Shown here piece by piece: positions 22,034-60,020 of a stretch of DNA of 64,000 nucleotides. The stretch's first letter is position 1; the number at the start of each line of letters is the position of its first letter. The position numbers were made by a program, and so were the translations under genes. The notes below the pieces were generated by a model. That model searched no databases. It saw nothing but the letters and a program-made list of their open reading frames with translations, and was not told the origin of the DNA. The stretch is from NCBI GenBank assembly GCA_003584705.1, contig AP018536.1, forward strand, positions 1-64,000, written 5' to 3'. Source of the DNA: Lachnospiraceae bacterium GAM79. Its GTDB lineage: Bacteria; Bacillota; Clostridia; Lachnospirales; Lachnospiraceae.

Positions 22034-22642
22034 ATGTCAAAATTATTTTGTGTGAGTCCGGGACTTCGGGTGCTGGAAAGGCAGATGCAGCAGCCACCGG
22101 GGTACAGACCGAGAGGATATGGTATCTGTGTGATGGATGTGGACTGGAGGAGCAGGGGAAATTATTCTGAAATCGTTGACTGCGTGATCAGCAGAATGCA
22201 GATGGAGCATCTGAAGAAAAGGGTGGATGAAATTTTTTGTGAAGTGGATAAGGAACTGATATTCCGTAATCCAAAGCACAGAAATGATTTCTATTCCTTG
22301 CTGATGGGGAAGAGGGCAAAGACATTGCAGTATGCACCGGGATATGCTGCCGCAGTCTTTTTATTGTCTGCTGATGGAATTTTATGGGAGAAGATCCGCA
22401 AAAATGTTCTGGATACCGGGATTTACTTTGACAGAGTAAGGCTTGGAGGCGTGACACTGGAGCACTACATTCTGTTTCATGCGGCCAAGGATGTTTATAG
22501 CGGAACAAAGCATATCCGCTTGTCAGAACTGACAGACCGGGAACTGATACCCGATGAGATACTCCGCCTTATCGTGAATGCTTTTGTCATCGAGAAGTGC
22601 GGAGTGGAAATTATAAAGCAGGAGGTGTGGAATGCGGATTAA
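22034..22642 (+). CDS. DUF6075-like protein of conjugative elements, function unknown
   Basis: A roughly 202-residue soluble protein. The segment from about residue 75 (ELIFRNPKHRNDFYSLL) through AAVFLLSADGILW, RVRLGGVTLEHYILFHAAKDVYSG and LRLIVNAFVIEKCG matches what I recall of DUF6075 proteins, which ride on phages and ICEs. The annotation is from memory of the pattern, not a search. The ATG at 22034 is 5 bases from GGAGG; an upstream TTG overlaps that site and is unlikely. The stop overlaps the next start by 11 bases, indicating translational coupling. Confidence 0.6.
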   Translation: MSKLFCVSPGLRVLERQMQQPPGYRPRGYGICVMDVDWRSRGNYSEIVDCVISRMQMEHLKKRVDEIFCEVDKELIFRNPKHRNDFYSLLMGKRAKTLQYAPGYAAAVFLLSADGILWEKIRKNVLDTGIYFDRVRLGGVTLEHYILFHAAKDVYSGTKHIRLSELTDRELIPDEILRLIVNAFVIEKCGVEIIKQEVWNAD

Positions 22643-26985: not shown

Positions 26986-27516
26986 ATGAAAAACATATAT
27001 TTTCGTAACGGAGTCCTTATTTACTATGGAAATCCGGCAGGGTATCTGTCAGATGGAAAAGTAATTCTGGACTCCATTTTTGATAAAGGGGAAATCAAAG
27101 AGTTCCTATCAGAGAAGGAAAAGCTGGCAGTAGAGGTCAGGGACGGAGTGTATGACCGTCTGTCAGAGGGTGGAGGGATGGAAGAAGTGAAGATACAGGG
27201 CAGGGAAAGGAGGATAAAAATACATCAGCTGAAACAGGGCAGTCCGCTCATGATGCGGTTTATCAGTCTGGCAGAAAGGGAAAACAGGGGCTATGGAAAA
27301 CCGCAGGCAGAGGAGTATGCACTGGTTTATGAAGGAGAAGTGGAAAACTTTAGTCTGGAAGAGGTCTGGGAGAAGTTCGGAAGAAGAGTACCGAAGGATT
27401 TTGAAGGACACGCACTATCCATATCGGATGTTGTGGAACTGATAGAAGACGAGGCAAGCCGCTTTTTCTATGTAGAGCCGAAAGGCTTTGCAGAAATTGT
27501 ATTTCAATCAGAATAG
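26986..27516 (+). CDS. YodL-domain protein
   Basis: About 176 residues. The C-terminal 100 (IKIHQLKQGSPLMMRFISL... YALVYEGEVENFSLEEVWEKFG...PKDFEGHALSISDVVELIEDEASRFFYVEPKGFAEI) match the YodL-type domain that occurs in ICE and phage proteins of Clostridia. Its biochemical role is unknown. The likely start is ATG 26986, about 7 bases after GGAG; the in-frame ATG at 26962 lies inside the preceding gene. The last bases overlap the region before the SpoVG-like gene. Confidence 0.7.
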   Translation: MKNIYFRNGVLIYYGNPAGYLSDGKVILDSIFDKGEIKEFLSEKEKLAVEVRDGVYDRLSEGGGMEEVKIQGRERRIKIHQLKQGSPLMMRFISLAERENRGYGKPQAEEYALVYEGEVENFSLEEVWEKFGRRVPKDFEGHALSISDVVELIEDEASRFFYVEPKGFAEIVFQSE

Positions 27517-27538
27517 CCGGGAGGCGGAAAGGAAGAAC

Positions 27539-27943
27539 ATGGCAGGAAAAGGAACAAAAAATAATCAGCAGAATACACAGGGCGAAGCACAGTCCGGGCA
27601 GCCGAAACAGCCGCTGGAGTTTGATGTGCGCATCCAGTCAATCAAACCCAGTGATTCCATCAAAGGCACTGCATCCGTGAACATTAACGGAGCCTTTGCC
27701 ATCAGGGGTGTGAAAATTATTGAAGGGACAAACGGATTGTTTGTATCCATGCCCAGCTACAAGGTAGGAAACGATTATAAGGATATCTGTTTCCCTATCA
27801 CACCGGAATGCAGAAAGCAGTTAAATGATGCGGTGCTTGGTGCTTATGAACAGGCACTTACACAGAGCCAGAACAGTGTGGCAAAGCATCATGAAATGCA
27901 GCAGGCACCGGAAGGTCAGGCAATGGACATGACCGGGATGTAA
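27539..27943 (+). CDS. SpoVG-family nucleic-acid-binding protein, copy 1
   Basis: A 134-residue protein with a low-complexity Gln-rich N terminus and a SpoVG-like core (FDVRIQSIKPSDSIKGTASVNINGAFAIRGVKII...LFVSMPSYK...FPITPECRKQLNDAVLGAYEQAL). SpoVG homologues bind DNA or RNA and act as pleiotropic regulators. The tail is GQAMDMTGM, part of the element-wide Met-rich tail family. The ATG at 27539 follows GGAAAGGAAG. A pilin-like gene separates it from a second SpoVG-family gene. Confidence 0.82.
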   Translation: MAGKGTKNNQQNTQGEAQSGQPKQPLEFDVRIQSIKPSDSIKGTASVNINGAFAIRGVKIIEGTNGLFVSMPSYKVGNDYKDICFPITPECRKQLNDAVLGAYEQALTQSQNSVAKHHEMQQAPEGQAMDMTGM

Positions 27944-28359: not shown

Positions 28360-28752
28360 ATGCCGAGAAGAGCAGATACACAGGAAAATACAAATACAGC
28401 AGAACCCATGGAACAGCAGGTGCCTTTTGAGGTCACCATCACAGAACATAACCCGGAGAGAGGTGTGCTTGCCACGGCGGATGTTAAGGTGGGGAACATG
28501 ATGACCATCCGCAACGTAAAAATCAAGGAGGATGACTATGGGCTTACCGTAACCATGCCCCGGACCAAGGTGCCCCATGCGGAGCAGTATAAGGATTCTG
28601 TATATTTTGCGGATAAGTCCATGAAGCAGCAGTTTGATCAGGCGGTGGAGAAAGCCTATCAGGAAAATGTTCTTGCACCGGTGCTTGATCAGGATGAGGC
28701 CGAAGAGGAGATGGAACAGGAAGAATCCGCCGGCATGAACATGGGAATGTAG
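28360..28752 (+). CDS. SpoVG-family nucleic-acid-binding protein, copy 2
   Basis: A 130-residue homologue of the gene at 27539: PFEVTITEHNPERGVLATADVKVGNMMTIRNVKI...LTVTMPRTKV...DSVYFADKSMKQQFDQAVEKAYQ fits the SpoVG fold. It has a Thr/Glu-rich N terminus and ends EESAGMNMGM, the clearest form of the shared Met-rich tail. The ribosome site AAGGAGGAAA is 8 bases before ATG 28360. It lies directly upstream of the Tad pilus genes and could regulate them. Confidence 0.75.
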   Translation: MPRRADTQENTNTAEPMEQQVPFEVTITEHNPERGVLATADVKVGNMMTIRNVKIKEDDYGLTVTMPRTKVPHAEQYKDSVYFADKSMKQQFDQAVEKAYQENVLAPVLDQDEAEEEMEQEESAGMNMGM

Positions 28753-29184: not shown

Positions 29185-29186
29185 CC

Positions 29187-30176: not shown

Positions 30177-30179
30177 ATT

Positions 30180-33264: not shown

Positions 33265-33276
33265 AAAGGAGGCAGT

Positions 33277-34149: not shown

Positions 34150-34162
34150 TATGGAGGTGTGC

Positions 34163-34567: not shown

Positions 34568-35112
34568 GGAAATATTTGAAACGTGCCGCCCTTCTTTTGA
34601 AAGACCGCAGGGGGAACATGCTTCCGTTAGTGGTGGCGGTTACCATAGGGATGCTGTTAATCATCCTCGGAGTATCGGAATACATGCGTCTGGTGATTAC
34701 AGCCGCAGGCATCAAAGATGCAATGGAATCTGCAGTGATCTCCACGGTCAATGATAACTATAACGAGGTTTATCATTGTGTGAGGGAAGGCTATGCTGCA
34801 GGCTATGAGCCGGATGGGGAATCCTTTGCGGCATCGGTGGATTATGGAGATATCTACAGCCGGATGAGTTTCCTGCTTGGACTGGAGGAGGACGGAGATG
34901 GTTATGTGAGGATCAATAACGGCGGGGAACAGGAATATCGTCTGAGTAATCTGTCCGTGTCCATACCGAACAATGCACTTGGAGCCGGTGGCGGTTCGTA
35001 TTATGCAGATGCATCCATACGGCTGGAAATTCCGGTGCGGTTTGCAGGGAAAATCATCACAAATATGTCAATAAACCTGAAGGTTCGGGCAGCTTATACA
35101 GAGAAGTTTTAG
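34564..35112 (+). CDS. TadE/TadG-like minor pilin-type membrane protein
   Basis: The 182-residue protein starts with KRAALLLKDRRGNMLPLVVAVTIG, the same D-x-R-G before the hydrophobic helix, and then has an extracellular domain of about 140 residues. This layout matches pseudopilins of Tad systems. It overlaps the DUF4320 gene by 4 bases. A specific family is not assignable from sequence alone. Confidence 0.6.
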   Translation: MRKYLKRAALLLKDRRGNMLPLVVAVTIGMLLIILGVSEYMRLVITAAGIKDAMESAVISTVNDNYNEVYHCVREGYAAGYEPDGESFAASVDYGDIYSRMSFLLGLEEDGDGYVRINNGGEQEYRLSNLSVSIPNNALGAGGGSYYADASIRLEIPVRFAGKIITNMSINLKVRAAYTEKF

Positions 35113-37653: not shown

Positions 37654-38118
37654 ATGGCATATGAAAGAATCGATAAACCAAAAGGTCTGCTCTATCACTA
37701 CACAAAACGAGAGAACGTGGAATCCATCTTAAGAGATGGAAGGATACGGAAATTTAAGGACTCGGAATGCTGGTTCTGTACTTCGCTGGAGGATACCTTG
37801 CGATTAATGGAACTGACGGTAATGCAGGAGGGGAAGTTATACTTTGATGCAAACGGATTTCCAAGACAGTATCCGAAGTTTGTACCGGAAGATTATGTCA
37901 TCTTAGAACTGGCACCCCGGCATCAGAACGGAGAATGGGTGCGATGGAATCAGGAACTTCCGAAAGATGTACCGGAGGCTCTGCTGAAACTTGGAGAAGA
38001 GTTCAGTCATTTGAAAGCAGGATTCAGGGGAGATTTGAGGTTTTATGAAAATCCAAATGTATATGAGGTTGCAGAACTGCTTCAGGAGCAGACACCAGCC
38101 ATGCAGATGGATATGTAA
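37654..38118 (+). CDS. Unknown protein, possibly ADP-ribosyltransferase-fold
   Basis: The 154-residue protein begins KGLLYHYTKRENVESILRDGRIRKF and continues CWFCTSLEDTLRLM. The LYHYT...SIL..G.I pattern is typical of ADP-ribosyltransferase-like folds (DarT, RNA 2'-phosphotransferase and related DUF families). The full catalytic set is not provable by eye. It ends EQTPAMQMDM, one of the clear Met-rich tails. It follows the exported-protein gene by 5 bases and precedes a terminator. Confidence 0.55.
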   Translation: MAYERIDKPKGLLYHYTKRENVESILRDGRIRKFKDSECWFCTSLEDTLRLMELTVMQEGKLYFDANGFPRQYPKFVPEDYVILELAPRHQNGEWVRWNQELPKDVPEALLKLGEEFSHLKAGFRGDLRFYENPNVYEVAELLQEQTPAMQMDM

Positions 38119-41688: not shown

Positions 41689-42253
41689 AAAGAACATGGA
41701 ATCCACCAGAGAACTGATGGGAACCAGAGAAGTGACGGATTACAGTATCCGAACATACAGGAATGAGGAGCTGGTTTACTTTTTAATCCAGCCCAGCAAC
41801 ATTTCCGTGCTGTCGGAGGAGAGTCTGTCAGCCAGAATTTATGGACTGATGACGGTGCTTAAGGGCATCACGGAAATCGAAATGATGTGCTTAAATTCCA
41901 GAGAGAATTTTGAGGACAACAAAAGATATCTGAAGAAGCGGATGGAGGAAGAAACCAATCCTGTGGTAAGAAAACTGCTGGAAAAGGATGCAAATTACTT
42001 AGACCGCATGCAGGTACAGATGGCAACAGCAAGGGAGTTTCTGCTGATCATCAGGCTTCGTGAAAAGAAGGAAAATGAAATTTTTTCCTACTTAAACCGC
42101 ATTGAAAAGATGCTGGCAGAGCAGGGATTTACATCCAAGAGGGCAGAGGAAGAGGATATCAAAAGAATCCTTGCAGTGTATTTTGAGCAGAATGTGACAA
42201 CCGAAAAATTCGAGGAATTTGACGGAGAAAGGTGGATTATTTTAAATGAATAA
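41681..42253 (+). CDS. VirB4-associated conjugation protein
   Basis: The 190-residue product from ATG 41681 (GGAGG 9 bases upstream) is largely helical. Its segments REVTDYSIRTYRNEELVYFLIQPSNISVLSEESLSARI and KGITEIEMMCLNSRENFEDNKRYLKKR resemble the N-terminal domain that precedes the ATPase in other VirB4 proteins. It may be a split-off N-terminal half of VirB4. It overlaps the VirB4 start by 8 bases. Confidence 0.7.
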   Translation: MSKKNMESTRELMGTREVTDYSIRTYRNEELVYFLIQPSNISVLSEESLSARIYGLMTVLKGITEIEMMCLNSRENFEDNKRYLKKRMEEETNPVVRKLLEKDANYLDRMQVQMATAREFLLIIRLREKKENEIFSYLNRIEKMLAEQGFTSKRAEEEDIKRILAVYFEQNVTTEKFEEFDGERWIILNE

Positions 42254-44081
42254 AAACAGAAAGAAAAACAGGGAAACAGAATCCACAGCAGAGGCAAAGC
42301 TGAAAGGGTTTCTGGATATGATTGCCCCGTCAGTCATCCAGTTTTATACGGATCACTATATCTGTGGAAATACCTACCGGAGTGTCTGGGCACTCCGTGA
42401 ATACCCGACAGCCACGGATGAACAGGCGATTTTAAGACACCTTGGGGAAAAGGATGGTGTTACCTTAAGAATCTACACCAGACAGGTGACACCGGCAGAG
42501 GAGAAAAAGATCATCAGCAATGCGGCCAACAAGAACCGCATGAAACAGGGGAACACAGAGAACTTACAGGAAACGGTTACCGCAGCAAGCAACTTACAGG
42601 ATGTGACGGCCATCATTTCCACCATGCACAGGAATCGGGAGCCGCTTTTACACACCGCTGTGTTTCTTGAACTGTCTGCACCGGATATGGAAAAGCTGAA
42701 ACTGCTGCAGACGGAGGTGTTGACAGAATTAATCCGCTCCAAGTTAAATGTGGACAAGCTCCTGCTGCGCCAGAAGCAGGGCTTTCTGTGTGTCCACCCG
42801 GCAGGAAGAAATGTGTTCCGTGAGCAGTTTGAACGGGCACTCCCTGCCTCCAGTGTAGCAAATCTGTTCCCTTTTAACTATTCCGGCAAGACAGATAAGA
42901 ATGGCTTTTATATCGGCAGGGATAAGTTTGGAAGCAATGTCATTGTGGACTTTAACCAGAGAGCCGATGACAAGACCAATGCCAATATCCTGATCCTTGG
43001 AAACTCCGGACAGGGAAAGTCCTATCTGTTAAAGCTGATACTGACCATTTTAAGGGAATCCGGTATGAAGGTCATCTGCCTTGATCCGGAGCATGAATAC
43101 ATCGACCTTACCAATAATCTGGGCGGATGCTTTGTGGATCTGATGAGCGGAGAATATATCATCAACGTGCTGGAGCCAAAGACTTGGGATGAGAACGGAA
43201 GCCCGGAGGACACGGATGCACCATATACGTTCCGCTGTTCCTCCAGATTAAGCCAGCACATCTCTTTCTTAAAGGACTTTTTTGGTACCTACAAGAATTT
43301 CACGGACAGCCAGATTGATACCATTGAAATCATGTTAGGAAAGCTGTATGAGAAGTGGAATATCCGGGATGATACGGACTTTAGTAAGCTGACACCGGAA
43401 GATTACCCCATCCTTTCAGATCTTTATGATCTGATGGAAGAGGAATACAGGCACTACGATGCCAAAAAGAAAGAACTGTATACCGCAGAATTATTGCAGG
43501 AAATCTGTTTAGGACTTCACTCCATGTGTAAAGGAGCGGAGTCCAAATTTTTTAACGGACATACCAACATCACGGACAGCAGCTTCCTGACATTCGGTGT
43601 CAAAGGACTGCTGCAGGCAAGCAGAAATGTGAAGGATGCCATGTTGTTTAACATTCTTTCCTACATGTCCAATGAACTGCTTACCAATGGACATACTGCC
43701 GCCAGCATCGATGAGTTTTATCTGTTCTTGACCAACCTGACAGCGGTGGAATATATCCGCAACTTCATGAAACGTGTCCGTAAAAAGGAAAGTGCAGTCA
43801 TTCTCGCCAGCCAGAATCTGGAGGACTTTAATATTGACGGTATCAGAGAATATACAAAACCGCTGTTTTCCATTCCGACACATGCCTTTTTATTCAATGC
43901 CGGAAATATCGATGCCAGATTTTACATCGATACTTTGCAGCTTGAGAAGAGTGAGTACAACCTGATCCGTTATCCCCAGAGAGGTGTGTGTCTCTATAAG
44001 TGCGGCAACGAAAGGTATAACCTGATGGTTCATGCACCGGAATATAAGGAGAAGCTGTTTGGTAATGCAGGAGGCCGCTAA
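42246..44081 (+). CDS. VirB4-family conjugation ATPase
   Basis: The 611-residue ATPase has Walker A LGNSGQGKSYLLK at about residue 252, Walker B IDEFYLFLT, and the conserved KKESAVILASQNLEDF region. It energises type IV secretion assembly and substrate transfer at the cytoplasmic membrane. The adjacent upstream genes (PrgI-like and the 190-residue protein) confirm the context. It carries no Met-rich tail (ends NAGGR). Confidence 0.92.
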   Translation: MNKNRKKNRETESTAEAKLKGFLDMIAPSVIQFYTDHYICGNTYRSVWALREYPTATDEQAILRHLGEKDGVTLRIYTRQVTPAEEKKIISNAANKNRMKQGNTENLQETVTAASNLQDVTAIISTMHRNREPLLHTAVFLELSAPDMEKLKLLQTEVLTELIRSKLNVDKLLLRQKQGFLCVHPAGRNVFREQFERALPASSVANLFPFNYSGKTDKNGFYIGRDKFGSNVIVDFNQRADDKTNANILILGNSGQGKSYLLKLILTILRESGMKVICLDPEHEYIDLTNNLGGCFVDLMSGEYIINVLEPKTWDENGSPEDTDAPYTFRCSSRLSQHISFLKDFFGTYKNFTDSQIDTIEIMLGKLYEKWNIRDDTDFSKLTPEDYPILSDLYDLMEEEYRHYDAKKKELYTAELLQEICLGLHSMCKGAESKFFNGHTNITDSSFLTFGVKGLLQASRNVKDAMLFNILSYMSNELLTNGHTAASIDEFYLFLTNLTAVEYIRNFMKRVRKKESAVILASQNLEDFNIDGIREYTKPLFSIPTHAFLFNAGNIDARFYIDTLQLEKSEYNLIRYPQRGVCLYKCGNERYNLMVHAPEYKEKLFGNAGGR

Positions 44082-44087
44082 GCGGGA

Positions 44088-45113
44088 ATGCCGATGGATT
44101 TACGGGAGCAGAAATTCGGGATTGAAATAGAACTGACCGGTCTTACCAGAAAAAGGGCGGCAGAGGTAATTGGAAAGTATCTGGGGCAGGAACCCCATTA
44201 CGATGGCGGCTATTATGAGGAATACAGTGTCAGGGACGGACAGGGAAGAAAGTGGAAAGTCATGTATGACTCCAGTATTGTTGCAGTGAAAAAGGGAGGC
44301 GGTTCTGCCGGGGATGAGTACAAGGTGGAATTTGTATCCCCCATCTGTGAGTATGCAGATATCCCAACGATTCAGGAACTGGTACGGCAGTTAAGACACG
44401 CAGGAGCCATAGCCGGGGAAAATGCCGGTATCCATGTTCATGTGAATGCAGCACCCTATACGGCAAGAACACTCCGCAACATTACAAACATCATGTACTG
44501 CAAGGAGGATCTGATTTATAAAGCATTGCAGGTAGATGTGGAGAGGGAACACAGATACTGCAAAAAAGTGGAGGAAAGTTTTTTGCAGGAACTGAACCAG
44601 AAAAAACCAAAGTCCATAGATGAAGTCAGCAACATCTGGTACCAGGGAAGGGATGGCAGAAACAGGCATTACCATGAGAGCAGATACCACTGTCTGAACC
44701 TGCACAGTGTGTTCCAGAAGGGAACCATTGAGTTTAGGCTCTTTAATTCCACTACCCACGCAGGAAAAATCAAGACCTATATACAGCTCTGCCTTGCCAT
44801 CTCTGCACAGGCGTTAAACCAGAGCAGTGCCAGCCGTATCAAGACAACCAGCACCAACGAGAAATATACCTTCCGCACATGGCTTCTCCGTCTGGGAATG
44901 ATCGGGGATGAGTTTAAGACCGCCCGTAAGTTTCTTTTGGAGAACCTTGAAGGCGGGATTGCATGGAAGGACCCGGAACAGGCAGAGAGACAAAAGGAGA
45001 GACTTAGAGCAAAAAAGGAAAAAGAAGAAGCAAATCAGACAGCGGAGGCAGAGAACCTTCAGTTAGAAGAAGGTGCGGAAGAAGAGTCACAGGGAATGCA
45101 TATGACCATGTAA
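44088..45113 (+). CDS. Amidoligase-family protein
   Basis: The 341-residue protein has the signature of the Amidoligase_2 family: FGIEIELTGL near residue 10, EFVSPI near residue 80, AGIHVHVNA near residue 120, and the arginine-bearing RYHCLNLHSVF...GTIEFRLFNST. These are ATP-grasp/glutamine-synthetase-like enzymes thought to form amide or isopeptide links. A GGCT-like gene follows after 32 bases, a pairing reported for this family by Iyer, Aravind and co-workers. The C terminus is Lys/Glu-rich and ends EESQGMHMTM. The substrate is unknown. Confidence 0.85.
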   Translation: MPMDLREQKFGIEIELTGLTRKRAAEVIGKYLGQEPHYDGGYYEEYSVRDGQGRKWKVMYDSSIVAVKKGGGSAGDEYKVEFVSPICEYADIPTIQELVRQLRHAGAIAGENAGIHVHVNAAPYTARTLRNITNIMYCKEDLIYKALQVDVEREHRYCKKVEESFLQELNQKKPKSIDEVSNIWYQGRDGRNRHYHESRYHCLNLHSVFQKGTIEFRLFNSTTHAGKIKTYIQLCLAISAQALNQSSASRIKTTSTNEKYTFRTWLLRLGMIGDEFKTARKFLLENLEGGIAWKDPEQAERQKERLRAKKEKEEANQTAEAENLQLEEGAEEESQGMHMTM

Positions 45114-45145
45114 ACAATTAGAGATTTTAAGAAAGGCAGAGAGAA

Positions 45146-45652
45146 ATGGAAAAGAGAAAGAAATATATCGCTTACGGCTCCAATCTGAATCTGGAGCAGA
45201 TGGCAAGAAGATGTCCCACGGCAAAGGTAATCGGAGCGGGAGAAATCAGGGATCATGAGTTACTGTTCCGGGGATATCGGGAGTCGGCAGTGGCAACGGT
45301 GGAACCAAAGAAGGGAGCCAGCGTTCCTGTTCTTATCTGGGAGATTGGACCGGAGGATGAAAGAAATCTGGATATTTACGAAGGGCATCCGAGGCTTTAT
45401 GGCAAGGTGAATCTGGAAGTGCAGATGGAAAATGGCTCAGAATCCATCATGGCTTATACCATGAATGAAGGACATGAAATCGGAATCCCATCGGTACATT
45501 ATCTGGAAACCATCACAACCGGATATCTGGAGGCAGGCTTTGATGTCAACCGTCTGCTGGAGAGTGTATCCCATTGTAAGGAACTGGCAGAAAGAGAACC
45601 TGTTTGTGAGGGAATGGAGGAGAACCCATGGAACCAGCAACTGCTGCAATGA
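45146..45652 (+). CDS. Gamma-glutamylcyclotransferase (AIG2/YtfP)-like protein
   Basis: The 168-residue protein has the substrate-binding loop AYGSNLNLEQM at about residue 8 and the catalytic-Glu region LDIYEGHPRLYG near residue 75, which define the GGCT fold. GGCT enzymes release 5-oxoproline from gamma-glutamyl amines. Next to an amidoligase it may reverse or recycle an isopeptide product. The gene overlaps the NlpC/P60 gene by 25 bases. Confidence 0.85.
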   Translation: MEKRKKYIAYGSNLNLEQMARRCPTAKVIGAGEIRDHELLFRGYRESAVATVEPKKGASVPVLIWEIGPEDERNLDIYEGHPRLYGKVNLEVQMENGSESIMAYTMNEGHEIGIPSVHYLETITTGYLEAGFDVNRLLESVSHCKELAEREPVCEGMEENPWNQQLLQ

Positions 45653-46713
45653 TTGCCAAAGCTGCCATCGCAGTGGGTACCAATAAGAAGGTCTGGACAG
45701 GAATCGCTTCCGTGATTGCCGCGTTGTGTCTGCCGTTTATCCTGATTATTGTGTGCATCTTGAGCATTGCATCCGGCGGGGCAGATCATAACCGGTCTGC
45801 GGTCCGTCTGGCATTTGAAGGAGGAACCATCCCTTCCGGCATGCCTGCTGATTACCGGGAATACATCGGACAGATGCAGGAAAGCTTCGGGGAACTGGAT
45901 ACGGTTCTTGGCGAAATCGACAATATGACAGAAGGAGAGCTTACAGACCGCTATCTGGTCAAAGCCGTGTTCTATTCTCTGTATTTCGGCGCCGACAGGG
46001 TCCGGCTGGAAGCTTCTGATTACCAGCGGTTTGCGGAGTGCTTTGTGAATTATGAGGAACGCACCAAAACAATAGAAAACCCGGATGGCAGTGAGAGTGA
46101 AGAAACCTATGTGGTGGCAGTGGCGGTCACGGATAAGGTGGAGCTGTTTGAAAAGATCAGCACTGACTATGGAACGTCCCTCACGTATGAGCAGCAGTCT
46201 AATGCTGTGAATGTGTGGTATCTGGCAAAATACAATACCACCGCACCACAGGAAGGAGATGCTTTTGAGGACTGGTCGGGCTGGAGTGTGTCCGGGGAAG
46301 TCACTTATTATGACCTGCCTGCAAGCGAGGTTGGAGGAAAGGTAGTAGAGCTTGCCATGTCAAGGCTGGGACATCCCTATTCACAGACCTATCGCGGAAA
46401 GGGCAATTATACGGATTGCAGCTATCTGACCATGTGGTGTTACAGACATGCAGGCATCACCATACCCGGAACTGCGGCAGAGCAGGGAAGGTACATGGTG
46501 GAACATGACCTTACGATTGCAAAGGAGGATTTGCAGCCGGGGGACCTTGTGTTCTGGAGCCATAAACCAAACGGGAGATTTATGAACATTACCCATGTGG
46601 GTATTTATGCAGGAAATGGAATGGTGGTGGATGCATCCTATTCCAAGGGAAAAGTAGTACATCGGAATTTATTTGACAGTGATAAACAGGTGCTGTATGG
46701 CAGACCACAGTAG
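45628..46713 (+). CDS. NlpC/P60 peptidoglycan hydrolase of the conjugation system
   Basis: The 361-residue protein has a membrane anchor at about residues 30-50, a helical middle region, and a C-terminal NlpC/P60 domain (about 235-361). The catalytic Cys is in TDCSYLTMWCYRHAG, the His in ITHVGIYAGNG and the third polar residue in the VVDASYSKG strand. It corresponds to the CwlT/VirB1 cell-wall-opening component. A lysozyme-like domain, often present in relatives, is not obvious. Confidence 0.85.
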   Translation: MEPATAAMIAKAAIAVGTNKKVWTGIASVIAALCLPFILIIVCILSIASGGADHNRSAVRLAFEGGTIPSGMPADYREYIGQMQESFGELDTVLGEIDNMTEGELTDRYLVKAVFYSLYFGADRVRLEASDYQRFAECFVNYEERTKTIENPDGSESEETYVVAVAVTDKVELFEKISTDYGTSLTYEQQSNAVNVWYLAKYNTTAPQEGDAFEDWSGWSVSGEVTYYDLPASEVGGKVVELAMSRLGHPYSQTYRGKGNYTDCSYLTMWCYRHAGITIPGTAAEQGRYMVEHDLTIAKEDLQPGDLVFWSHKPNGRFMNITHVGIYAGNGMVVDASYSKGKVVHRNLFDSDKQVLYGRPQ

Positions 46714-46720: not shown

Positions 46721-46766
46721 GATGCCAGGGGCATCTGTTTTGTTTTACAGGAGAAACTTTCTCCTG
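46721..46766 (+). promoter_or_regulatory. Terminator plus possible ribosome-site switch
   Basis: GATGCC-AGG-GGCATC (46721-46735) is followed by TGTTTTGTTTT, a terminator-like element. Then CAGGAGA (46748-46754) pairs with TCTCCTG (46760-46766). TCTCCT is also complementary to the true ribosome site AGGAGG (46772-46777) of the next gene. Alternative pairing could control translation. The structures are seen; the switch idea is inference. Confidence 0.5.
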
Positions 46767-46785: not shown

Positions 46786-47157
46786 ATGGCAGAGAGAGAA
46801 ATCAAGATCGGGTTTCCCGAAGCAAAAATGGAGGCACTGGAGTTTTTCTTAAAGGAGAATGATACCACTGTAGAGAAGGTGTTAAGGGAGCATCTGGATA
46901 AGACCTATGAGAAAAGTGTGCCCCAGCAGGTCAGAAAATTTGTGGAAAGCAAGATGACTCCCCAGACGGAGGAGCCTGCCCAGAATGAAGCCGGAAATGC
47001 AAGACATGGCAGAGGACAGGGAAGAAGAAGCACCAGACAGCAGACCGCAAGAGAGACTGTTTCGGAGCAGGAAAATAACGGAGCAGAACAGGCTGCGGAG
47101 CAGGAAACACAGGAACCGGAACAGGAGCAGACTGGCGGTATGTCCATGAGTATGTAG
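46786..47157 (+). CDS. DUF6103-like protein, paralogue 1
   Basis: The 123-residue protein has an N-terminal helix-rich domain (LEFFLKENDTTVEKVLREHLDKTYEKSVPQQVRKFVESK) shared with the gene at 48441, then a disordered Gln/Glu/Arg-rich tail that ends EQTGGMSMSM. The domain has the size of a small DNA-binding or dimerisation module. The ATG at 46786 has AAGGAGGAAA upstream. Confidence 0.65.
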   Translation: MAEREIKIGFPEAKMEALEFFLKENDTTVEKVLREHLDKTYEKSVPQQVRKFVESKMTPQTEEPAQNEAGNARHGRGQGRRSTRQQTARETVSEQENNGAEQAAEQETQEPEQEQTGGMSMSM

Positions 47158-47178: not shown

Positions 47179-48363
47179 ATGAATTATGAAGGCTTTAAAC
47201 AATATGTGGCAGACCATATCAAAGAGTTTTTGCCACAGGATTATAGTGTGCATGAGATCAGTATCACGAAACAGAGAAAGAACAATGACGTGGTTTGGGA
47301 TGCACTTTCCATTAAGGGAGACAGCAATATTGTACCTGTCATTTATCTGGAACCATACTATCAGGCCTATACAGATGGAGCCAGGATGGATGACATTTTA
47401 CAGAAAATAGCAGACATGTACATGAAGAGTATGGAGCAGGTAAGTGAATTTCCTATCGAAAGTTTTCAGTATGATAGTGTAAAGAACAGCATTTTTGTTG
47501 TGGTACAGAATGCCGGGATGAATCAGGAATTGCTGGAGAAGGTACCGCATGAACTGAGGGAGGATCTGGCTCTTCTTTACAGAGTCAATATGGAGCTTCC
47601 CAATGGAGAAAAGGGAAGTGTATTAATTCATAATAACCATTTGGAAATGTGGGGAATCGATGAAAAAACATTAAAGGAAGTGGCATGGGACAATATGCAT
47701 AACTATTTTCCGCCGGAGTTTGCTTCCTTGGGCAAAGTATTACGTTCCCTTGGTTATAATGAAATACCGGAAGGTGCAGAACTTATTGAGATGTATGTCC
47801 TCACTAATAAGGATAAACACTATGGCGCTGCTTATATGTTTGACAAGGAAGTCATGAGCAGGATAGCAGAAGAGATGGGTGGGGACATTGTGGTTTTACC
47901 ATCCTCTATCCATGAAAGTATTTTGTTAAAGAAGGAAAAAGATACAGATTTTGATACACTGCGTGAAATGGTAAAAGAGGTGAACCGCGCACAGCTTCTT
48001 CCGACTGAAATTTTATCAGATGAAGTATATCAGTACAGCAGAGATACGCAGACCTTATCCCGTGTGGTGGCGGTATCGCAGGAAGAAATTCCAATGCCGG
48101 ATAAGGTAAGTATGGAAGAGATGCATGACTACGGGTACACGTGGGATGGCATGCTTCCGCTTACGAAGGAAAGGGCATTAGAACTGCTGGATACAGAACT
48201 GGTATTACATAAGCTGTACAATGACGGAGCCGAAGCCACATTGGATAGCAGGAATGAAATCCTTTCTCATGATGGTCTGTTTGGTGTAGAAAGAGATTCG
48301 TGGATGGAGTATTTGAATGCCCAGAGTCAGATTGAAACCAATGGGATGATACAGGAAATGTGA
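47179..48363 (+). CDS. DUF5688-family protein
   Basis: The 394-residue protein matches the pattern I recall for DUF5688 (VVWDALSIKGDSNIVPVIYLEPYYQAYTDGARMDDI at about residue 40; PSSIHESILL near 255; LQKIADMYM). It has no membrane segment. Members are common in Clostridia ICEs and in some secretion loci, with unknown function. It ends IETNGMIQEM, a variant of the shared tail. The GGAGGTAAG site precedes ATG 47179. Confidence 0.75.
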   Translation: MNYEGFKQYVADHIKEFLPQDYSVHEISITKQRKNNDVVWDALSIKGDSNIVPVIYLEPYYQAYTDGARMDDILQKIADMYMKSMEQVSEFPIESFQYDSVKNSIFVVVQNAGMNQELLEKVPHELREDLALLYRVNMELPNGEKGSVLIHNNHLEMWGIDEKTLKEVAWDNMHNYFPPEFASLGKVLRSLGYNEIPEGAELIEMYVLTNKDKHYGAAYMFDKEVMSRIAEEMGGDIVVLPSSIHESILLKKEKDTDFDTLREMVKEVNRAQLLPTEILSDEVYQYSRDTQTLSRVVAVSQEEIPMPDKVSMEEMHDYGYTWDGMLPLTKERALELLDTELVLHKLYNDGAEATLDSRNEILSHDGLFGVERDSWMEYLNAQSQIETNGMIQEM

Positions 48364-49109: not shown

Positions 49110-49904
49110 TTGAAAGGCAGAAGGAGAGCCATCTTTTTATGCCATTTCAATAAAAACTGTATACAGAAAGCGAAAAAGCAGGGAAAGGAGAAAGATAGCC
49201 TCAACGGACGTGTCCGTTTGGATAATGGTGCGCACCGCTATCGGTATGAGGCTATAAAAGTATTGGAATTATTTGCAGGAACGAGAAGTATCGGGAAAGC
49301 ATTTGAAAAAAGAGGTCATGAAGTATTTAGTGTGGAGTGGTCAAAGGATTTTGCAGGCATTGATTTGTATGAGGATATCAGCAAAGTAACGGCAGAAGAT
49401 ATCCTGCGGCTGCTTGGTCAGCCGGATGTGATATGGGCGAGTCCCGACTGTACCACCTTCAGTATTGCAGCAATCAGTCATCACCGCAGAAAGAATCCGG
49501 TAACAGGGAGCTTAGAGCCGGTCAGTGAGTATGCAAAATTCTGTGACAGAGTGGATACCCATGTGCTGGAACTGATTAGAGAATTACAGCCAAGATATTA
49601 TTTTATTGAGAATCCCAGAGGCGGTATGCGGAAGATGGAGTGGATGAGAGGTCTGCCGAGGTATACGGTCACTTACTGCCAGTACGGCGATAACCGCATG
49701 AAGCCTACGGATATCTGGACCAATCACCCGGAACCGAAGTTTTTACCGATGTGTCATAACGGGGATTCGTGTCATGTGGCAGCTCCCAGAGGGAGCAAGA
49801 CCGGGACACAGGGATTAAAGGGAGCAAGAGAGCGGAGCATCATTCCGCAGAAACTGTGTGAGCATATCGTAGACATCTGTGAGGAAGGGGAGAAAGATAA
49901 GTGA
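49110..49904 (+). CDS. Phage-type DNA cytosine methyltransferase-like protein, start uncertain
   Basis: The conserved protein begins KVLELFAGTRSIGKAF (SAM motif I) at about 49257. It has the active-site motif ASPDCTTFS in place of PPCQ, YYFIENPRGGMRKM in place of ENV, and a C-terminal part YCQYGDNRMKPTDIW. This suits the small cytosine methylases of phages and ICEs. The frame is open from TTG 49110, but the first 49 residues look non-coding. No ATG occurs before the conserved region, and an ATA or TTG at 49254-49265 could be the start. The real coding region is probably about 49254-49904. Confidence 0.75.
   Translation: MKGRRRAIFLCHFNKNCIQKAKKQGKEKDSLNGRVRLDNGAHRYRYEAIKVLELFAGTRSIGKAFEKRGHEVFSVEWSKDFAGIDLYEDISKVTAEDILRLLGQPDVIWASPDCTTFSIAAISHHRRKNPVTGSLEPVSEYAKFCDRVDTHVLELIRELQPRYYFIENPRGGMRKMEWMRGLPRYTVTYCQYGDNRMKPTDIWTNHPEPKFLPMCHNGDSCHVAAPRGSKTGTQGLKGARERSIIPQKLCEHIVDICEEGEKDK
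49195..49255 (+). promoter_or_regulatory. Three-way-junction-like structure over the MTase start region
   Basis: An outer stem ATAGCCTCA (49195-49203) pairs with TGAGGCTAT (49247-49255). Inside are ACGGAC-GT-GTCCGT (49204-49217) and a second arm, GATA..GGTGCGCACC..TATC (49221-49242). The strong AAGGAG site lies just 5 bases before the structure and the conserved coding begins just after it, so folding could bring the ribosome site close to the start. Inference only. Confidence 0.5.
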
Positions 49905-50482
49905 AAACAAATGCAATTTATACCATTCATGAGAAAGGAACAGACTTTTATTTTTATACGGAGCATGCAGGAGGATTTGGATATCCGTTTGCGGCGGCTG
50001 ATTTTCTTCACAGTCTGAAATATGCCATAAAATCTTCAATGGTGTCACAAAAGAACATTTGTGTTTCGCCATTATTGGAACAGATGGAAGGAGATTATCA
50101 CTTTCCGGATGAGTTGGAAAATAAGAGAATATTTACGAAAGCAGAAAAAGAACACTTGTTGAAACTTGCGACAAGACAGAAAATACCGATGGCAATTGAA
50201 ATCGATATGGATGCAGATACCGTGTCCTTTCATTTCAGGGAAGATGAGGAGGAACTTCAGGATTTGTGTGATGTCACATTTTCGAGATATATAAGCCGCG
50301 AACAGAAATATGACGGCTCCTATTGCAGGCAGGTATTGGACAACTTAATGGTGAGTGATATGTTTGATGAACGTGACAGGCATATTTGGGAACAGCAGGA
50401 AGAGGCATACAGACATGTCATTCAAAAGGCATCAAAGGAACTTATGGAGCAGCAGGATCAGGGCATGCAGCAAATAATGTGA
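49901..50482 (+). CDS. Hypothetical protein with the shared Met-rich tail
   Basis: A 193-residue protein from GTG 49901, overlapping the methylase stop by 4 bases (GTGA). The N-terminal half (IYTIHEKGTDFYFYTEHAGGFGYPFAAADFLHSLKYAI) has an alpha/beta pattern I cannot assign. The C-terminal helices end EQQDQGMQQIM. It overlaps nothing downstream and precedes a ribbon-helix-helix gene by 7 bases. Function unknown. Confidence 0.65.
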   Translation: MKTNAIYTIHEKGTDFYFYTEHAGGFGYPFAAADFLHSLKYAIKSSMVSQKNICVSPLLEQMEGDYHFPDELENKRIFTKAEKEHLLKLATRQKIPMAIEIDMDADTVSFHFREDEEELQDLCDVTFSRYISREQKYDGSYCRQVLDNLMVSDMFDERDRHIWEQQEEAYRHVIQKASKELMEQQDQGMQQIM

Positions 50483-52066: not shown

Positions 52067-54916
52067 ATGCCCAAACTAATCCTACGCTGTAACTACCTAA
52101 AAAACGCTCCGCCATCTCACTTACAGAACTTTGTGCAATACATAGGAACCCGTGAAGGAGTGGAAAAAGTATCCGACACCACAGCACTGCTCCCGGCAAC
52201 CGCCAAGCAGAAAGAACTGATACAGGACATTCTGAACCGTATTGAAGATGCAGACCGGATGCATGAATATTACGATTACATCCAGAAACCTACAAGGGAG
52301 AATGCCTCGGAATTTATTACACAGGCATTGGAAAACAATCTGGATATTATTGCCAAGAAAAAGAACTACATAGATTACCTTGCAAACAGACCAAGAGTGG
52401 AACGAATCGGCACGCATGGTCTGTTTTCTTATGCGGGGGAATCCGTGGTGCTTTCCAAAGTGGCAGAGGAAGTGGCAAGCCATGAGGGAGTCATCTGGAC
52501 CAATGTCATCAGTCTGCGAAGGGAAGATGCAGAGAGACTCGGCTATGACAGTGCGGCTCAGTGGCAGGAGCTGTTGCGGAGCCGGGTGCAGACCTTTGCG
52601 GAGAATTATAAAATCGACAGCACCAACCTGAAATGGTATGCGGCATTTCACAATGAGTCCCATCACCCACATGTACATCTGGTTATTTATTCGCAGAATC
52701 CGCACGAAGGCTATCTGACCAGACAGGGAATTGAAACCATGCGGTCTGTGCTGGCACATGATATCTTCCGTCAGGACTTTATGAGTATTTATGAAAGAAA
52801 GACCAAGCAGAGGAATCTGTTAAAAGAGCAGGCAGAGGATACTCTGCAAAGACTTATCCGGCAGATGCAGACCGGCGTGTGCCACAATGAAAAGATTATG
52901 GAGCAGATGCTCCTATTGGCAAAGCGGCTGCAGAATACCGGAGGAAAAAAAGTATACGGCTATCTGAAAGCCGATGTGAAAAAGATTGTAAACGGCATCG
53001 TAGATACGCTGACAGAAGAAACTATGGTGGCTGAGTGTTACCGTAAGTGGCAGGAATGCCAGAACGAGGTGTATCGGACTTACAAAGATACCATACCGGA
53101 ATATCCGCCCCTGTCCGGACAGAAAGAATTTAAGAGTATCAAAAATATGGTCATTTCCGAAGCGGTGAAATTAGGGAATGGCTCTTTTTATTTTGATGAT
53201 GCCGGATATGAACAGAGGGAAAATTATATCGGGGTGGAGACAGCACAGCAGGCAGGAGAGGAAGTAATCCCTGACATTGCGGAAATGCAGGAAATGATGG
53301 AACAGGAAATCGGGGAACAGGAAACCCCGGAGCCGGAAGTCACAGCTCCGGCAGCTCCCGATTCCAATCAGGTGGCTCAGTCATCAGACACAGTCCGGTA
53401 TTATTACGCCGACTGGACGGACACCTACAAAGAGGCAAGAGGCTATCTCTACGGAACCGAGGAAGCAGAGCCGGACAAGGAAGCCGCCTATGAGATTATG
53501 CTGGAAGAGGCAGAGAACGGCAATGCCCTTGCCATGTATGATGTGGCAAAAATGTATAAACAGGGCATTCATGTAGAGCCGGACGAAACGGCAGCGGCAG
53601 AGTGGTATCAGAAATCCTTTCAGGCATTCTGCTATGCAGAACGGAACGCAGTAAAGCCAAATCATCATGCCTATCTGGAATACCGCATCGGAAAGATGCA
53701 CCAGTATGGACTTGGCACAGAAGAAGACTTCGGGAAAGCAGCAGAATGGTTTCAAAGGGCGTCAGATAAGAACCACAAATATGCACAATACTCATTAGCC
53801 ATGCTCTACCGGCAGGGAAAAGGCGTGCCGCAGGATGACAGGGAAGCACACCGCCTATTTCAGTGTTCCCATAAACAGGGCAATGCTTATGCCTCCTATG
53901 AACTGGCAAAGATGTATGAACAGGGAATCGGAATATCGGTCAATCCGGAACTGGCAACGGACTGTTACCGGGTAGCATTCTTAGGATTTCTAGGCATGGC
54001 GAAAAAGGGAAAGGATGATACCCTGCTGTACCGCATCGGTGCCATGTATCTGCATGGAAAAGGAACGGAACCGGAGGAAGCAAAGGCAGTACAGTATTTT
54101 GAAAAGTCAGCAGAGTATGGAAATGTTCATGCAAAGTACCAGCTTGCCAGAATTTATCTCAAACGGGAAAAAGAAAAACTGGAAGCAGGACAACCGGCGG
54201 AGGAAGAAAAAGTCAGACAGGCAATCACATGGCTGACGGAATTTGCAGATCAGGGAAATGACTTTGCAGCTTATGCCCTGGGAAGCCTGTACCTGGAAGG
54301 TGTGCTGACAGAACGGGATATCAGTAAAGCAATTCTCTATCTGACACAGGCGGCAGACCAGAACCATGTGTATGCACAATTCCGTCTGGGAAAATTGTAT
54401 CTGACGGAAGAATGTCAGGACATCACAAAAGCCATCCATTATCTGAAGCTGGCAGCAAATCAGTGCAACAGCTTTGCCGCATACCGTCTCGGCAGGCTGT
54501 ATCTTTTGGGAGAGCAGGTACAGAAGGATGTGGAACAGGCAGTCCGCTATCTGTTACAGTCCGCCGATGCAGGCAATTCCTATGCACAGTATGCCATTGG
54601 AAAGCTGTACCTCATAGGGAAAGAGATACCGCAGGATAAGGAAAAAGCAGAAATCTATCTGACAATGGCAGCAGAACAGGGCAACGAATATGCAGCTTAT
54701 TTACTGGAACACTGGCAGGAGGCTGTAAGTTCGGATGTGTTTCTGATGACAACCAGACTGCTCCGCCATTTGGGAAATGTGTTCGCAGATGAGAGTGAGC
54801 GCAGGAGAAGCGGCAGCGGAGCAACGGTGGATAGAAAGCTCCGCCGGAAAATCCGGGAGAAGAAAATCGCACAGGGACATGCGGAAGATGACCATGCACA
54901 GGTACAGACCATGTAG
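52067..54916 (+). CDS. MobP-type relaxase fused to Sel1-like repeats
   Basis: The 949-residue protein has an N-terminal relaxase domain. The start KLILRCNYLKNAP and the metal-binding HHPHVHLVIYSQNP motif (about residues 198-211) match MobP3-like relaxases. A middle region follows, then from about residue 470 to 890 a series of nine or so Sel1-like repeats (A-x-Y-x-L-A-x-M-Y-x-x-G pattern). The relaxase nicks oriT and leads DNA into the recipient. Sel1 repeats are protein-binding scaffolds, unusual for a relaxase. The C terminus ends AQVQTM, resembling the shared tail. Confidence 0.88.
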   Translation: MPKLILRCNYLKNAPPSHLQNFVQYIGTREGVEKVSDTTALLPATAKQKELIQDILNRIEDADRMHEYYDYIQKPTRENASEFITQALENNLDIIAKKKNYIDYLANRPRVERIGTHGLFSYAGESVVLSKVAEEVASHEGVIWTNVISLRREDAERLGYDSAAQWQELLRSRVQTFAENYKIDSTNLKWYAAFHNESHHPHVHLVIYSQNPHEGYLTRQGIETMRSVLAHDIFRQDFMSIYERKTKQRNLLKEQAEDTLQRLIRQMQTGVCHNEKIMEQMLLLAKRLQNTGGKKVYGYLKADVKKIVNGIVDTLTEETMVAECYRKWQECQNEVYRTYKDTIPEYPPLSGQKEFKSIKNMVISEAVKLGNGSFYFDDAGYEQRENYIGVETAQQAGEEVIPDIAEMQEMMEQEIGEQETPEPEVTAPAAPDSNQVAQSSDTVRYYYADWTDTYKEARGYLYGTEEAEPDKEAAYEIMLEEAENGNALAMYDVAKMYKQGIHVEPDETAAAEWYQKSFQAFCYAERNAVKPNHHAYLEYRIGKMHQYGLGTEEDFGKAAEWFQRASDKNHKYAQYSLAMLYRQGKGVPQDDREAHRLFQCSHKQGNAYASYELAKMYEQGIGISVNPELATDCYRVAFLGFLGMAKKGKDDTLLYRIGAMYLHGKGTEPEEAKAVQYFEKSAEYGNVHAKYQLARIYLKREKEKLEAGQPAEEEKVRQAITWLTEFADQGNDFAAYALGSLYLEGVLTERDISKAILYLTQAADQNHVYAQFRLGKLYLTEECQDITKAIHYLKLAANQCNSFAAYRLGRLYLLGEQVQKDVEQAVRYLLQSADAGNSYAQYAIGKLYLIGKEIPQDKEKAEIYLTMAAEQGNEYAAYLLEHWQEAVSSDVFLMTTRLLRHLGNVFADESERRRSGSGATVDRKLRRKIREKKIAQGHAEDDHAQVQTM

Positions 54917-59936: not shown

Positions 59937-60020
59937 GTTAGAAGTCTCCTCCATCAAAACCATATTATAAATTGAGCAATTGTAAAAATTTAGGGAAAGG
60001 TGAAAATAAGAATGTATAAG

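Follow-up and report, generated by a model that had tools for sequence, protein, structure and literature searches.

Two adjacent genes encoding an amidoligase and a GGCT were recognized in the T4SS operon of an ICE, which lies in the window, i.e., the whole stretch of 64,000 nucleotides that was analysed. The amidoligase, an Amidoligase_2 protein (GS-superfamily carboxylate-amine ligase), was assigned to 44088..45113 (+ strand, 341 aa, PF12224), and the GGCT-fold gamma-glutamyl cyclotransferase to 45146..45652 (+, 168 aa, PF06094), leaving a gap of 32 bp between the two ORFs. The gene directly upstream encodes a VirB4-type T4SS ATPase (42246..44081, +), and the amidoligase ORF starts 6 bp on from its stop at 44081. 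This VirB4 was matched to NF045975 with an E-value of 2e-88 and 297 bits, under the model cut-off of 590. The downstream gene, an NlpC/P60 protein (45628..46713, +; PF00877, E 1.8e-15), overlaps the GGCT end by 25 bp. The placement of the pair between VirB4 and NlpC/P60, as given in an earlier note on this DNA, was confirmed with exact coordinates and with matches to PF12224 and PF06094. A terminator-like hairpin after NlpC (46721..46735, +) was found by consensus scan only, which covered 6.2 kb and gave 10 sites of this kind vs 4.8 expected; two of the sites on the + strand fall inside genes, i.e., the ligase (44711) and the GGCT (45313). A C5-cytosine methylase (PF00145) belongs to the same gene run. 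In the anti-phage defence search with PADLOC-DB 2.0.0 (E 0.01), 0 families were hit by the amidoligase or GGCT, and a reading of the pair as a known defence system was rejected for lack of a PADLOC match.

The amidoligase showed high similarity to PF12224 (E 5.9e-79, 265.8 bits, cut-off 22), with positions 2-244 of the 245 in the profile covered. The motifs described in the earlier note were intact. The ExE motif (Glu13 and Glu15; 44124..44132, +) was conserved at each residue in 61/63 relatives and invariant across 34 alignment rows; by analogy with GS, we take these residues to be putative metal/ATP ligands. The HxH motif (His116 and His118; 44433..44441, +) and the ExR motif (Glu215 and Arg217; 44730..44738, +) were each found in 63/63 relatives. 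No sequence relative was detected in the PDB profile search with the ligase, and one single-sequence match (E 1.3) was taken as chance. The structure model (pLDDT 92) was aligned to 1tt4 with Z 13.8 over 234 residues at rmsd 3.9, and to YbdK and plant glutamate-cysteine ligase with Z 13.7 each (VIA-align). The Pup ligase/depupylase PafA/Dop was also considered in the fold comparison, in which Dop reached Z 10.9 and the gamma-glutamyl ligases 13.7-13.8. The gamma-glutamyl ligases are the closest folds to the predicted structure. The window ligase has the same fold as the glutamate-cysteine ligase/YbdK/glutamine synthetase superfamily but differs in sequence, and this likeness (Z ~11-14, 8-16% identity in aligned rows) leaves the carboxylate donor unfixed. 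The window ligase also shares ExE and ExR-type motifs with this superfamily. An apparent amidoligase-GGCT fusion in one related locus (L104) was rejected, since the long GGCT ORF was not in the frame of the ligase match.

The GGCT was matched to PF06094 with an E-value of 2.6e-10 and 41.3 bits (cut-off 22.8), and its structure model had a pLDDT of 93. The YGSN substrate loop (residues 10-13; 45173..45184, +), each residue of which was kept in 58/59 relatives, and Glu79 of the YEG motif (78-80; 45380..45382, +), kept in 59/59, were both found as previously described. Glu79 is putatively catalytic, as we assume by analogy with GGCT enzymes. Human GGCT shares the fold and the YGSN/Glu residues (profile E 4.1e-22, 81.7 bits; Foldseek E 8.6e-14), although the two proteins are only 22-24% identical. 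GGACT, the gamma-glutamylamine cyclotransferase, was matched at profile E 0.0018 (20.9-21.1 bits) and Foldseek E 7.7e-6. The window protein is nearer to the GGCT than to the GGACT subgroup, though PF06094 is named 'GGACT' by Pfam. For a GGCT to release 5-oxoproline, the alpha-amine of the gamma-glutamyl group must be free. Because of this need, the unit added by the ligase is probably free L-Glu. These results support a paired write/erase chemistry, which would be of the gamma-glutamyl kind. Of the earlier suggestion that the pair forms and removes isopeptide links, the forming and removing can be kept, and the word isopeptide should be narrowed to what is probably a free L-Glu unit.

The pair was found as a unit in other genomes. 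The GGCT was located downstream of the ligase on the same strand in 66/69 related loci, and the three misses were contig ends. The ligase and GGCT distance matrices were correlated (r 0.71 for 85 pairs), with a maximum of 0.19 in 1000 permutations. The search for the pair in other ICEs, which the earlier note had proposed, was anchored on VirB4. Regions with VirB4 of at least 75% identity, among them the second ICE of the same genome (L164) and a region overlapping L030 (L167), carried the ligase in 12/12 and the GGCT in 11/12; in L168 the ligase was present and no GGCT was found. Among VirB4 relatives of 73% identity or lower, the pair was present in 1/6 and absent in 5/6, with two of the ligase-less regions (L170, L171) stopping at contig ends ~4-5 kb past VirB4. 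These regions came from 18 of the 21 VirB4 sites besides the window; the sites left out were G445:C50 (stops), G290:C32 (VirB4 split), and G463:C69 (partial). At G290:C32, the ligase lies beside the split VirB4. The ligase-GGCT pair is ICE backbone, not cargo, and is fixed in one VirB4 clade across a wide range of Clostridia ICEs. This answers in part the objection that the pair is unrelated cargo.

The neighbouring NlpC/P60 gene did not follow the pair. With the window NlpC as the only query, NlpC was found within 2.5 kb after the GGCT in 38/59 ICE loci, whereas in 14 ICE loci it either preceded the pair (3) or was not detected nearby (11). In non-ICE neighbourhoods NlpC/P60 was near the pair in 1/54, by a weak match. 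Because of these non-ICE loci and the 14 ICE loci, the adjacency is considered to follow the T4SS operon. The neighbourhood test thus gave no support to a cell-wall/NlpC link of the pair. The cell-wall stem peptide, previously suggested as the target, is disfavoured by the same count and by the location of the pair near phage terminase genes.

Phage modules of Amidoligase_2 and GGCT were found in Terrisporobacter TPDSL_ph1, C. clostridioforme prophages, and module B of C. difficile Tn6164. They belong to the same families as the window genes (phrog_2443 and phrog_2520), with the ligase first, and the window pair has the same layout, i.e., close genes on the same strand in that order. Matches were obtained in 91 of 50,697 phage records, one of them filed as Ca. 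Heliusvirales (57%); among plasmid records there were 4 matches, none covering 80% of the query. Viral contigs encoded tailless full-length ligase relatives of up to 65% identity (L082; among the best 80 of 89). The phage pair sits by the terminase, commonly in the order TerS-Dcm-MetK-AMDL-GGCT-TerL-ParB/methylase (each member Pfam-checked by one representative), and some loci have a second divergent amidoligase and a second GGCT. The earlier idea of a mating-specific protein as the target does not agree with this occurrence of the same pair next to terminase genes in phages.

The methylase and SAM synthetase genes of this gene order were examined from two anchors. In 54 of 85 amidoligase-anchored loci (ligase ORF E <1e-60; including some genome contigs besides the viral ones; L080, L081, L088, and L133 left out), ParB-methylase was found in 37, Dcm in 16, and MetK in 16. 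In the terminase-anchored set (35 loci with enough flank out of at least 80), the GGCT was present in 17/24 loci with the ligase and 0/11 without it, among the loci listed. In these listed loci, ParB-methylase was present in 20/24 with the ligase vs 10/11 without, Dcm in 14/24 vs 4/11, and MetK in 4/24 vs 8/11, i.e., rarer with the ligase. Judging from the terminase-anchored counts among the loci listed, only the GGCT, not the methylases, depends on the ligase. The DNA-methylation link, which had looked strong in the amidoligase-anchored loci, was gone in this control and was rejected.

In the ligase tree of 111 rows, from which L002, L072-L079, and all tail columns were excluded, the ICE/other label needs 2 changes. 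L064 is the remaining exception; it has a very long branch and lies beside a 66-aa GGCT fragment. L088 keeps the ICE label in the tree and groups with L064.

The ICE ligases differ from the phage ligases at the C-terminus. The window ligase carries an ICE-specific extension (44973..45110, +), composed of a long helix, an acidic stretch, and the Met tail SQGMHMTM; in the model, a helix spans residues 296-338 and is followed by low pLDDT. Phage ligases end near residue 295-300, without the acidic extension or Met tail, and their last residues were AA, VA, or TA in 31/47 distinct ends. With the context judged from T4SS or relaxase genes alone, [MLF]x[ML]-COOH was found on 49/55 distinct ligase ends in T4SS context and 1/48 outside. 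Four viral contigs (L080, L081, L088, and L133) had first been grouped with the ICEs owing to their tails. L080 and L081 have T4SS/relaxase genes, L133 has NlpC only, and L088 has neither, its tailed ligase having no T4SS gene within 11.6 kb. The count was 50/56 vs 0/47 with the four as ICEs and 48/53 vs 0/47 without them. Across 56 distinct ICE ends, Asp/Glu made up 40% of positions -20 to -7 vs 12% across 47 others, in a set that leaves out L015 and L053 (ligase cut at contig end). The ICE ligases thus have an acidic stretch near the C-terminus, as do T4SS substrates with a Glu-rich C-terminal signal. ORF ends were called mechanically and a few may be spurious, e.g., that of the L175 ligase, which seems to be frameshifted. 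The DNA pattern for [G/A]M.M.M followed by TRR occurred at 8 sites in the 4.08-Mb genome, 4 of which are ORF ends of this ICE; the reversed control gave 0 sites. Of the remaining four, two end in TGG (no stop); the other two do have a stop but fall within genes, one in an ftsE-like gene (L079) and one where a relaxase-like ORF begins (L077). Because half of the genome sites are ICE ORF ends and the reversed control has none, the GMHMTM tail that the earlier note had pointed out is real and beyond chance.

Such tails were also found on other proteins of the ICE. By the Met rule (at least 2 Met in the last 6 residues), 8/41 ICE ORFs on the + strand (at least 60 aa) were tailed vs 2/351 chromosomal ORFs (at least 100 aa). 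The ArdA-like protein (22632..24263, +; PF07275, 25.9 bits, just below the cut-off of 27) ends in GMNMSC, and two SpoVG proteins end in AMDMTGM (27488..27943, +; PF04026, 96.4 bits) and GMNMGM (28360..28752, +; PF04026, 48.3 bits), both tails being found in the window only. Family tails were counted for an uncharacterised ORF without Pfam match (37654..38118, +; AMQMDM, 5/7 distinct tails), the DUF6103 protein (46786..47157, +; PF19598, GMSMSM, 8/37), the DUF5688 protein (47179..48363, +; PF18941, GMIQEM, 7/9), and another uncharacterised ORF (49901..50482, +; GMQQIM, 10/12). The cytosolic ICE proteins with such tails are ArdA-like, primase, DUF5688, DUF6103, and several unnamed ones. In channel parts, the Met rule gave distinct tails in 1/34 VirB3-like proteins (named by reading, without Pfam match), 0/82 of the VirB4 cluster (including the window ORF at 41624), and 0/33 VirB6/TrbL; NlpC gave 0/55 and the coupling protein 0/23. 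The window GGCT has no tail, and ICE GGCTs had one in 2/51 by the Met rule and 9/51 by a looser rule, with WW at 13/40 distinct ends. The looser rule also catches the membrane family DUF3852 (VirB2-like by reading) in 10/23. The MobP3 relaxase with Sel1 repeats (52067..54916, +; NF041499, 393 bits) ends in VQTM, a weak tail form. The relaxase is certain cargo and was expected to have the strongest tail; its family fits the Met rule in just 2/41 and the looser rule in 15/41.

The tail was also considered as the substrate of the amidoligase. This was rejected as the main reading because tailed ORFs persist where an ICE region lacks the ligase: in 5/5 such regions by the looser rule (5, 1, 2, 4, and 1 ORFs, including one for a membrane protein) and in 4/5 by the Met rule (4, 0, 1, 4, and 1 ORFs). 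The tail could also serve stability or docking only. The Dot/Icm Glu-rich E-block signals likewise lie at the very C-terminus of cytosolic proteins that are unrelated to each other, and they pair an acidic stretch with a short hydrophobic end. However, they belong to another T4SS class, whereas the tails described here are those of a Gram-positive ICE and show a Met-rich alternation.

Taken with the phage relatives, these observations suggest a self-contained gamma-glutamyl write/erase module shared with phages, whose ICE writer bears a T4SS-type signal. We give this explanation about even weight, the substrate and the function of the signal being our interpretation. The amidoligase would use ATP to form an amide between the gamma-carboxylate of L-glutamate and an amine, and the GGCT would remove the gamma-glutamyl group again as 5-oxoproline. 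The module, common to the terminase region of phages and to one Clostridia ICE clade, probably entered the T4SS operon once and then became backbone. The acidic extension and the hydrophobic-x-hydrophobic tail, mostly MxM, may be what the coupling protein or the T4SS recognizes, so the tailed ligase would be docked at, or delivered through, the channel. It might then modify a host component, i.e., a defence or surface precursor, on entry of the element into a new cell. A broader version, tentative and on balance doubtful, is that the acidic + [MLF]x[ML] C-terminus is an undescribed export signal of a Gram-positive ICE family, sending anti-restriction, SpoVG, primase, relaxase, and ligase proteins into the recipient with the DNA. 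As a conjugation effector, the ligase would gamma-glutamylate a recipient target, and the GGCT would allow the mark to be reversed in the donor and afterwards in the transconjugant. To our knowledge, how Gram-positive conjugation systems deliver proteins has been little explored, and the limited open-access literature searched gave no cargo signal shared among these systems.

Other roles of the pair were weighed. For phiEco32 amidoligases, passages of PMC11253131 and PMC11318856, both citing Iyer 2009, give a prediction of surface modification and exclusion and apply it to prophages with amidoligase and GGCT. Here a wall precursor would receive glutamate or a peptide from the ligase, and competing phages or elements would be blocked. 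Such exclusion would be of use to phages and ICEs alike, and NlpC/P60, overlapped by the window GGCT and close behind it in most ICE loci, could be part of the theme. We consider this unlikely: outside ICEs NlpC was nearly absent, in the 14 ICE loci it was upstream or not found, no wall-synthesis gene was among the nameable recurrent phage clusters, and neither a signal peptide nor a membrane span was evident by eye in the ligase or GGCT. The phiEco32/LUZ24-like systems, as far as the 2009 prediction of Iyer et al. is quoted there, likewise have Amidoligase_2 and AIG2/GGCT. A table in PMC3890496 places both in one early-gene region of UFV-P2. The table further contains genes for ATP-grasp and glutamine amidotransferase, whereas neither was seen among the window proteins scanned (a subset of ICE ORFs).

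It is distinctly improbable that the pair is required for mating through modification of a T4SS or relaxosome protein within the donor. Its place beside VirB4 within the T4SS operon, its fixation in one VirB4 clade, and a tail that could dock the ligase on the machine would fit; the same pair in phages and its absence from most VirB4 relatives of 73% identity or lower (5/6) argue against it. Small-molecule amine detoxification or salvage, as metabolic cargo, is highly improbable. The ligase folds resemble gamma-glutamyl-amine synthetases, e.g., naphthylamine GS and GmaS, and in PHROGs the GGCT is classed as moron/auxiliary metabolic gene. However, the fixed place in many Clostridia ICEs and the recurrent tail are unlike passing cargo, and no transporter or catabolic enzyme was among the nameable recurrent phage clusters. 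We give the least credence to a chemistry of DNA modification or anti-restriction in which the pair would act with the methylases and SAM synthetase nearby. The frequent phage gene order and the window C5-cytosine methylase suggested it, but the methylases at the listed terminase loci do not depend on the ligase.

For the phage-shared module with a tailed ICE writer, the amidoligase has a big meaning as a natural control, i.e., one enzyme with the tail in ICEs and without it in phages. Should the tail prove to be a T4SS signal, conjugation effectors in Clostridia could be sought by a sequence rule, and the role of an enzyme pair that is widespread in phages could be tested directly. Otherwise, any function of the pair must still suit a phage as well as an ICE, and this argues against a role confined to mating or that of a wall hydrolase. 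The Met tail, which was noted earlier and not used in the first reading, was the most informative feature of the locus.

The integrative and conjugative element (ICE) in the window extends from roughly 21.8 kb to 58.3 kb or beyond, both limits being approximate. Two SpoVG genes, Tad/Flp pilus genes (28756-35112), a TrbL/VirB6 protein (PF19511), a coupling protein (PF02534) and a MobP3 relaxase (52067-54916) were assigned to it. In its type IV secretion system (T4SS) run, a VirB4-type ATPase stops at 44081 and is followed after 6 bp by the amidoligase, i.e., the ligase (44088-45113). The GGCT gene (45146-45652) begins 32 bp further on, and NlpC/P60 (45628-46713) overlaps it by 25 bp. This arrangement, with conserved enzyme motifs, confirmed what the earlier note had observed. 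By consensus scan, no promoter-like site was found on the + strand from the VirB4 end to NlpC/P60, and a terminator-like hairpin was located directly 3' of NlpC/P60. Two further + strand terminator-like sites lay within the ligase and GGCT genes, one in each, and 10 such sites were observed against 4.8 expected, so the scan is weak evidence. The pair is probably co-expressed with the T4SS. The relaxase is a fusion with about seven Sel1 repeats.

The ligase belongs to PF12224 (265.8 bits). Its model (pLDDT 92) predicted a glutamine-synthetase (GS) superfamily fold. The best VIA-align rows, counted as ties when differing by Z 1 or less, were 1tt4 (Z 13.8), YbdK (13.7) and plant glutamate-cysteine ligase (13.7), followed by GshF, naphthylamine GS and E. 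coli gamma-glutamylcysteine synthetase (11.6 each), many glutamine synthetases, and Dop (10.9). The motifs ExE, HxH and ExR were conserved in 61-63 of 63 relatives. Cys158 (44559-44561) was invariant in all 63, at a position which we take to lie outside the known GS motifs; a role as acyl carrier or in structure is possible.

The GGCT profile matched human GGCT (E 4.1e-22) and far more weakly GGACT (0.0018). Its model (pLDDT 93) likewise gave a predicted fold match to human GGCT (E 8.6e-14). Every YGSN residue was present in 58/59 relatives and Glu79 in 59/59. A C-terminal WW, e.g., LKWW, was seen in 13/40 distinct ICE GGCT ends and 0/35 phage or other ends; the window GGCT ends in QQLLQ.

The ligase and GGCT are a real pair. 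Searching with nothing but the ligase sequence yielded 69 genome loci, of which 66 carry GGCT downstream on the ligase strand; the remaining three are cut off by a contig end 30 bp or less from the ligase match. Divergence of the two proteins was correlated (r 0.71, 85 pairs; maximum of 0.19 among 1000 permutations), also within ICEs only (r 0.88 versus 0.24) and phage or other loci only (0.58 versus 0.39). GGCT enzymes act on a gamma-glutamyl group with a free alpha-amine and release 5-oxoproline. From this chemistry, the GGCT identity and the fold neighbours of the ligase, we infer that the ligase would link the gamma-carboxylate of L-Glu to an amine and that GGCT would take the Glu off again, a mechanism held with moderate confidence.

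VirB4, MobP3 or coupling-protein matches accompanied 59/69 ligase loci. To avoid selection on the ligase, VirB4 was used as the anchor in 150 genomes of the family and 391 of the class, and 18 of 21 places were read. The pair is ICE backbone and not the unrelated cargo that the earlier note had considered as an alternative: where VirB4 was at least 75% identical, the ligase was present in 12/12 regions and GGCT in 11/12, and below 75% the ligase was present in 1/6. Another ICE of this kind in the GAM79 genome carries the pair at the equivalent position.

Tailless full-length relatives of the ligase, up to 65% identical, were found in viral contigs, and 91 of 50,697 phage records gave matches. 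One of these, a Faecalimonas phage filed as Ca. Heliusvirales, has genes for methylase, HNH, terminase and portal proteins close by. A frequent phage order was TerS, Dcm, MetK, ligase, GGCT, TerL and ParB-methylase; for each named cluster, one representative was checked against Pfam, and the portal label was given by reading. The cassette TerS-Dcm-MetK-amidoligase-GGCT-TerL recurs in L085, L091, L093, L094, L128 and other viral loci. Loci L106, L112, L118, L119 and L122 have at least two divergent amidoligase ORFs arranged in tandem, and several carry two GGCT ORFs as well; they look as if 1:1 pairs had been duplicated.

Methylases were considered as partners of the pair. In 35 terminase-anchored loci, ParB-methylase (20/24 with ligase, 10/11 without) and Dcm (14/24, 4/11) were independent of the ligase, and MetK was rarer with it (4/24 versus 8/11). 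Among the genes compared, only GGCT was tied to ligase presence (17/24 with, 0/11 without). The methylases therefore belong to the terminase region and not to the pair. The earlier note's interpretation was half right: its reading of ligase and GGCT as a pair is supported, and a cell-wall partner was not supported by the neighbourhood control.

In a tree of 111 ligases with tail columns removed, the ICE/other label takes two changes; the exception is L064, a long-branch locus placed beside locus L088. Ligase matches occurred in 15/196 class genomes at 22 places, seven reaching model position 329-339 (ICE length) and 15 ending at 296-302 (phage length).

ICE ligases end in a mostly Met, hydrophobic-x-hydrophobic tail after an acidic stretch (positions -20 to -7; 40% Asp/Glu, 12% in others). 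Met or Leu occupied position -1 in 52/56 distinct ICE ends and position -3 in 52/56. When only T4SS genes were used to set the context, 49/55 distinct ligase ends in T4SS context and 1/48 others (L088) had the form [MLF]x[ML]. Phage and other C-termini were AA, VA or TA in 31/47 distinct ends.

By the Met rule, i.e., at least two Met among the last six residues, 8/41 window ICE ORFs were tailed versus 2/351 chromosomal ORFs. Among distinct tails of 79 ICE loci, it was satisfied by ligase (46/58), the ORF-49901 (10/12), ORF-38534 (14/17) and ORF-37654 (5/7) families, DUF5688 (7/9), primase (17/36), ArdA-like (5/25), DUF6103 (8/37), relaxase (2/41) and GGCT (2/51). Channel-side families gave 1/34 (VirB3-like), 0/82 (VirB4 cluster) and 0/33 (VirB6), NlpC 0/55 and coupling protein 0/23. 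A looser rule gave relaxase 15/41 and ArdA-like 16/25, and also caught the membrane family DUF3852 (10/23). SpoVG tails were found in the window only. Tailed ORFs also occurred in five ICE regions without the ligase (four by the Met rule), so the tail is a property of the element, not of the ligase.

Signals for T4SS transport may sit at the C-terminus and be positively charged or hydrophobic (PMC3297438). DotM binds Glu-rich T4SS signals (PMC5802825), and proteins travel with or beside the DNA of conjugative elements, the cited case being ArdC (PMC5512222). By analogy with such signals and such transfer, delivery of the tailed ICE proteins by the T4SS is a fair hypothesis; the poor fit of the relaxase to the tail counts against it. 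The seen part of a 2025 T4SS review contained nothing on such signals (PMC12857230).

Amidoligase and GGCT are listed in C. difficile Tn6164 (PMC3485107), C. clostridioforme prophages (PMC11318856), a Terrisporobacter prophage (PMC11253131) and UFV-P2 (PMC3890496). A surface-exclusion idea is credited in this literature to Iyer et al. 2009. Within a limited open-access set of papers, no publication describing the pair in an ICE operon, or the tail, was found. To that extent, four points appear new: that the pair is ICE backbone, that ligases split into phage and ICE forms, that the control removes methylases and wall genes as partners, and that the tail exists.

The Tad/Flp region encodes a leader peptidase (PF01478), RcpC/CpaB (PF16976), AAA_31, a T2SSE ATPase and DUF4320, with a T2SSF match slightly below cut-off; Pfam gave no meaningful match for the TadB-like gene at 32335. 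Immediately past the T4SS module, on the minus strand (59367-62062), AgrB (PF04647), GHKL histidine kinase and LytTR response regulator genes were found. The second GAM79 ICE (loci L164 and L278, 290-327 kb of the genome) belongs to this family too; the pair likewise follows VirB4 there, and the ligase is 62% identical. Its Tad ATPase gene appears split by a 608-aa reverse-transcriptase ORF (PF00078), perhaps a group II intron.
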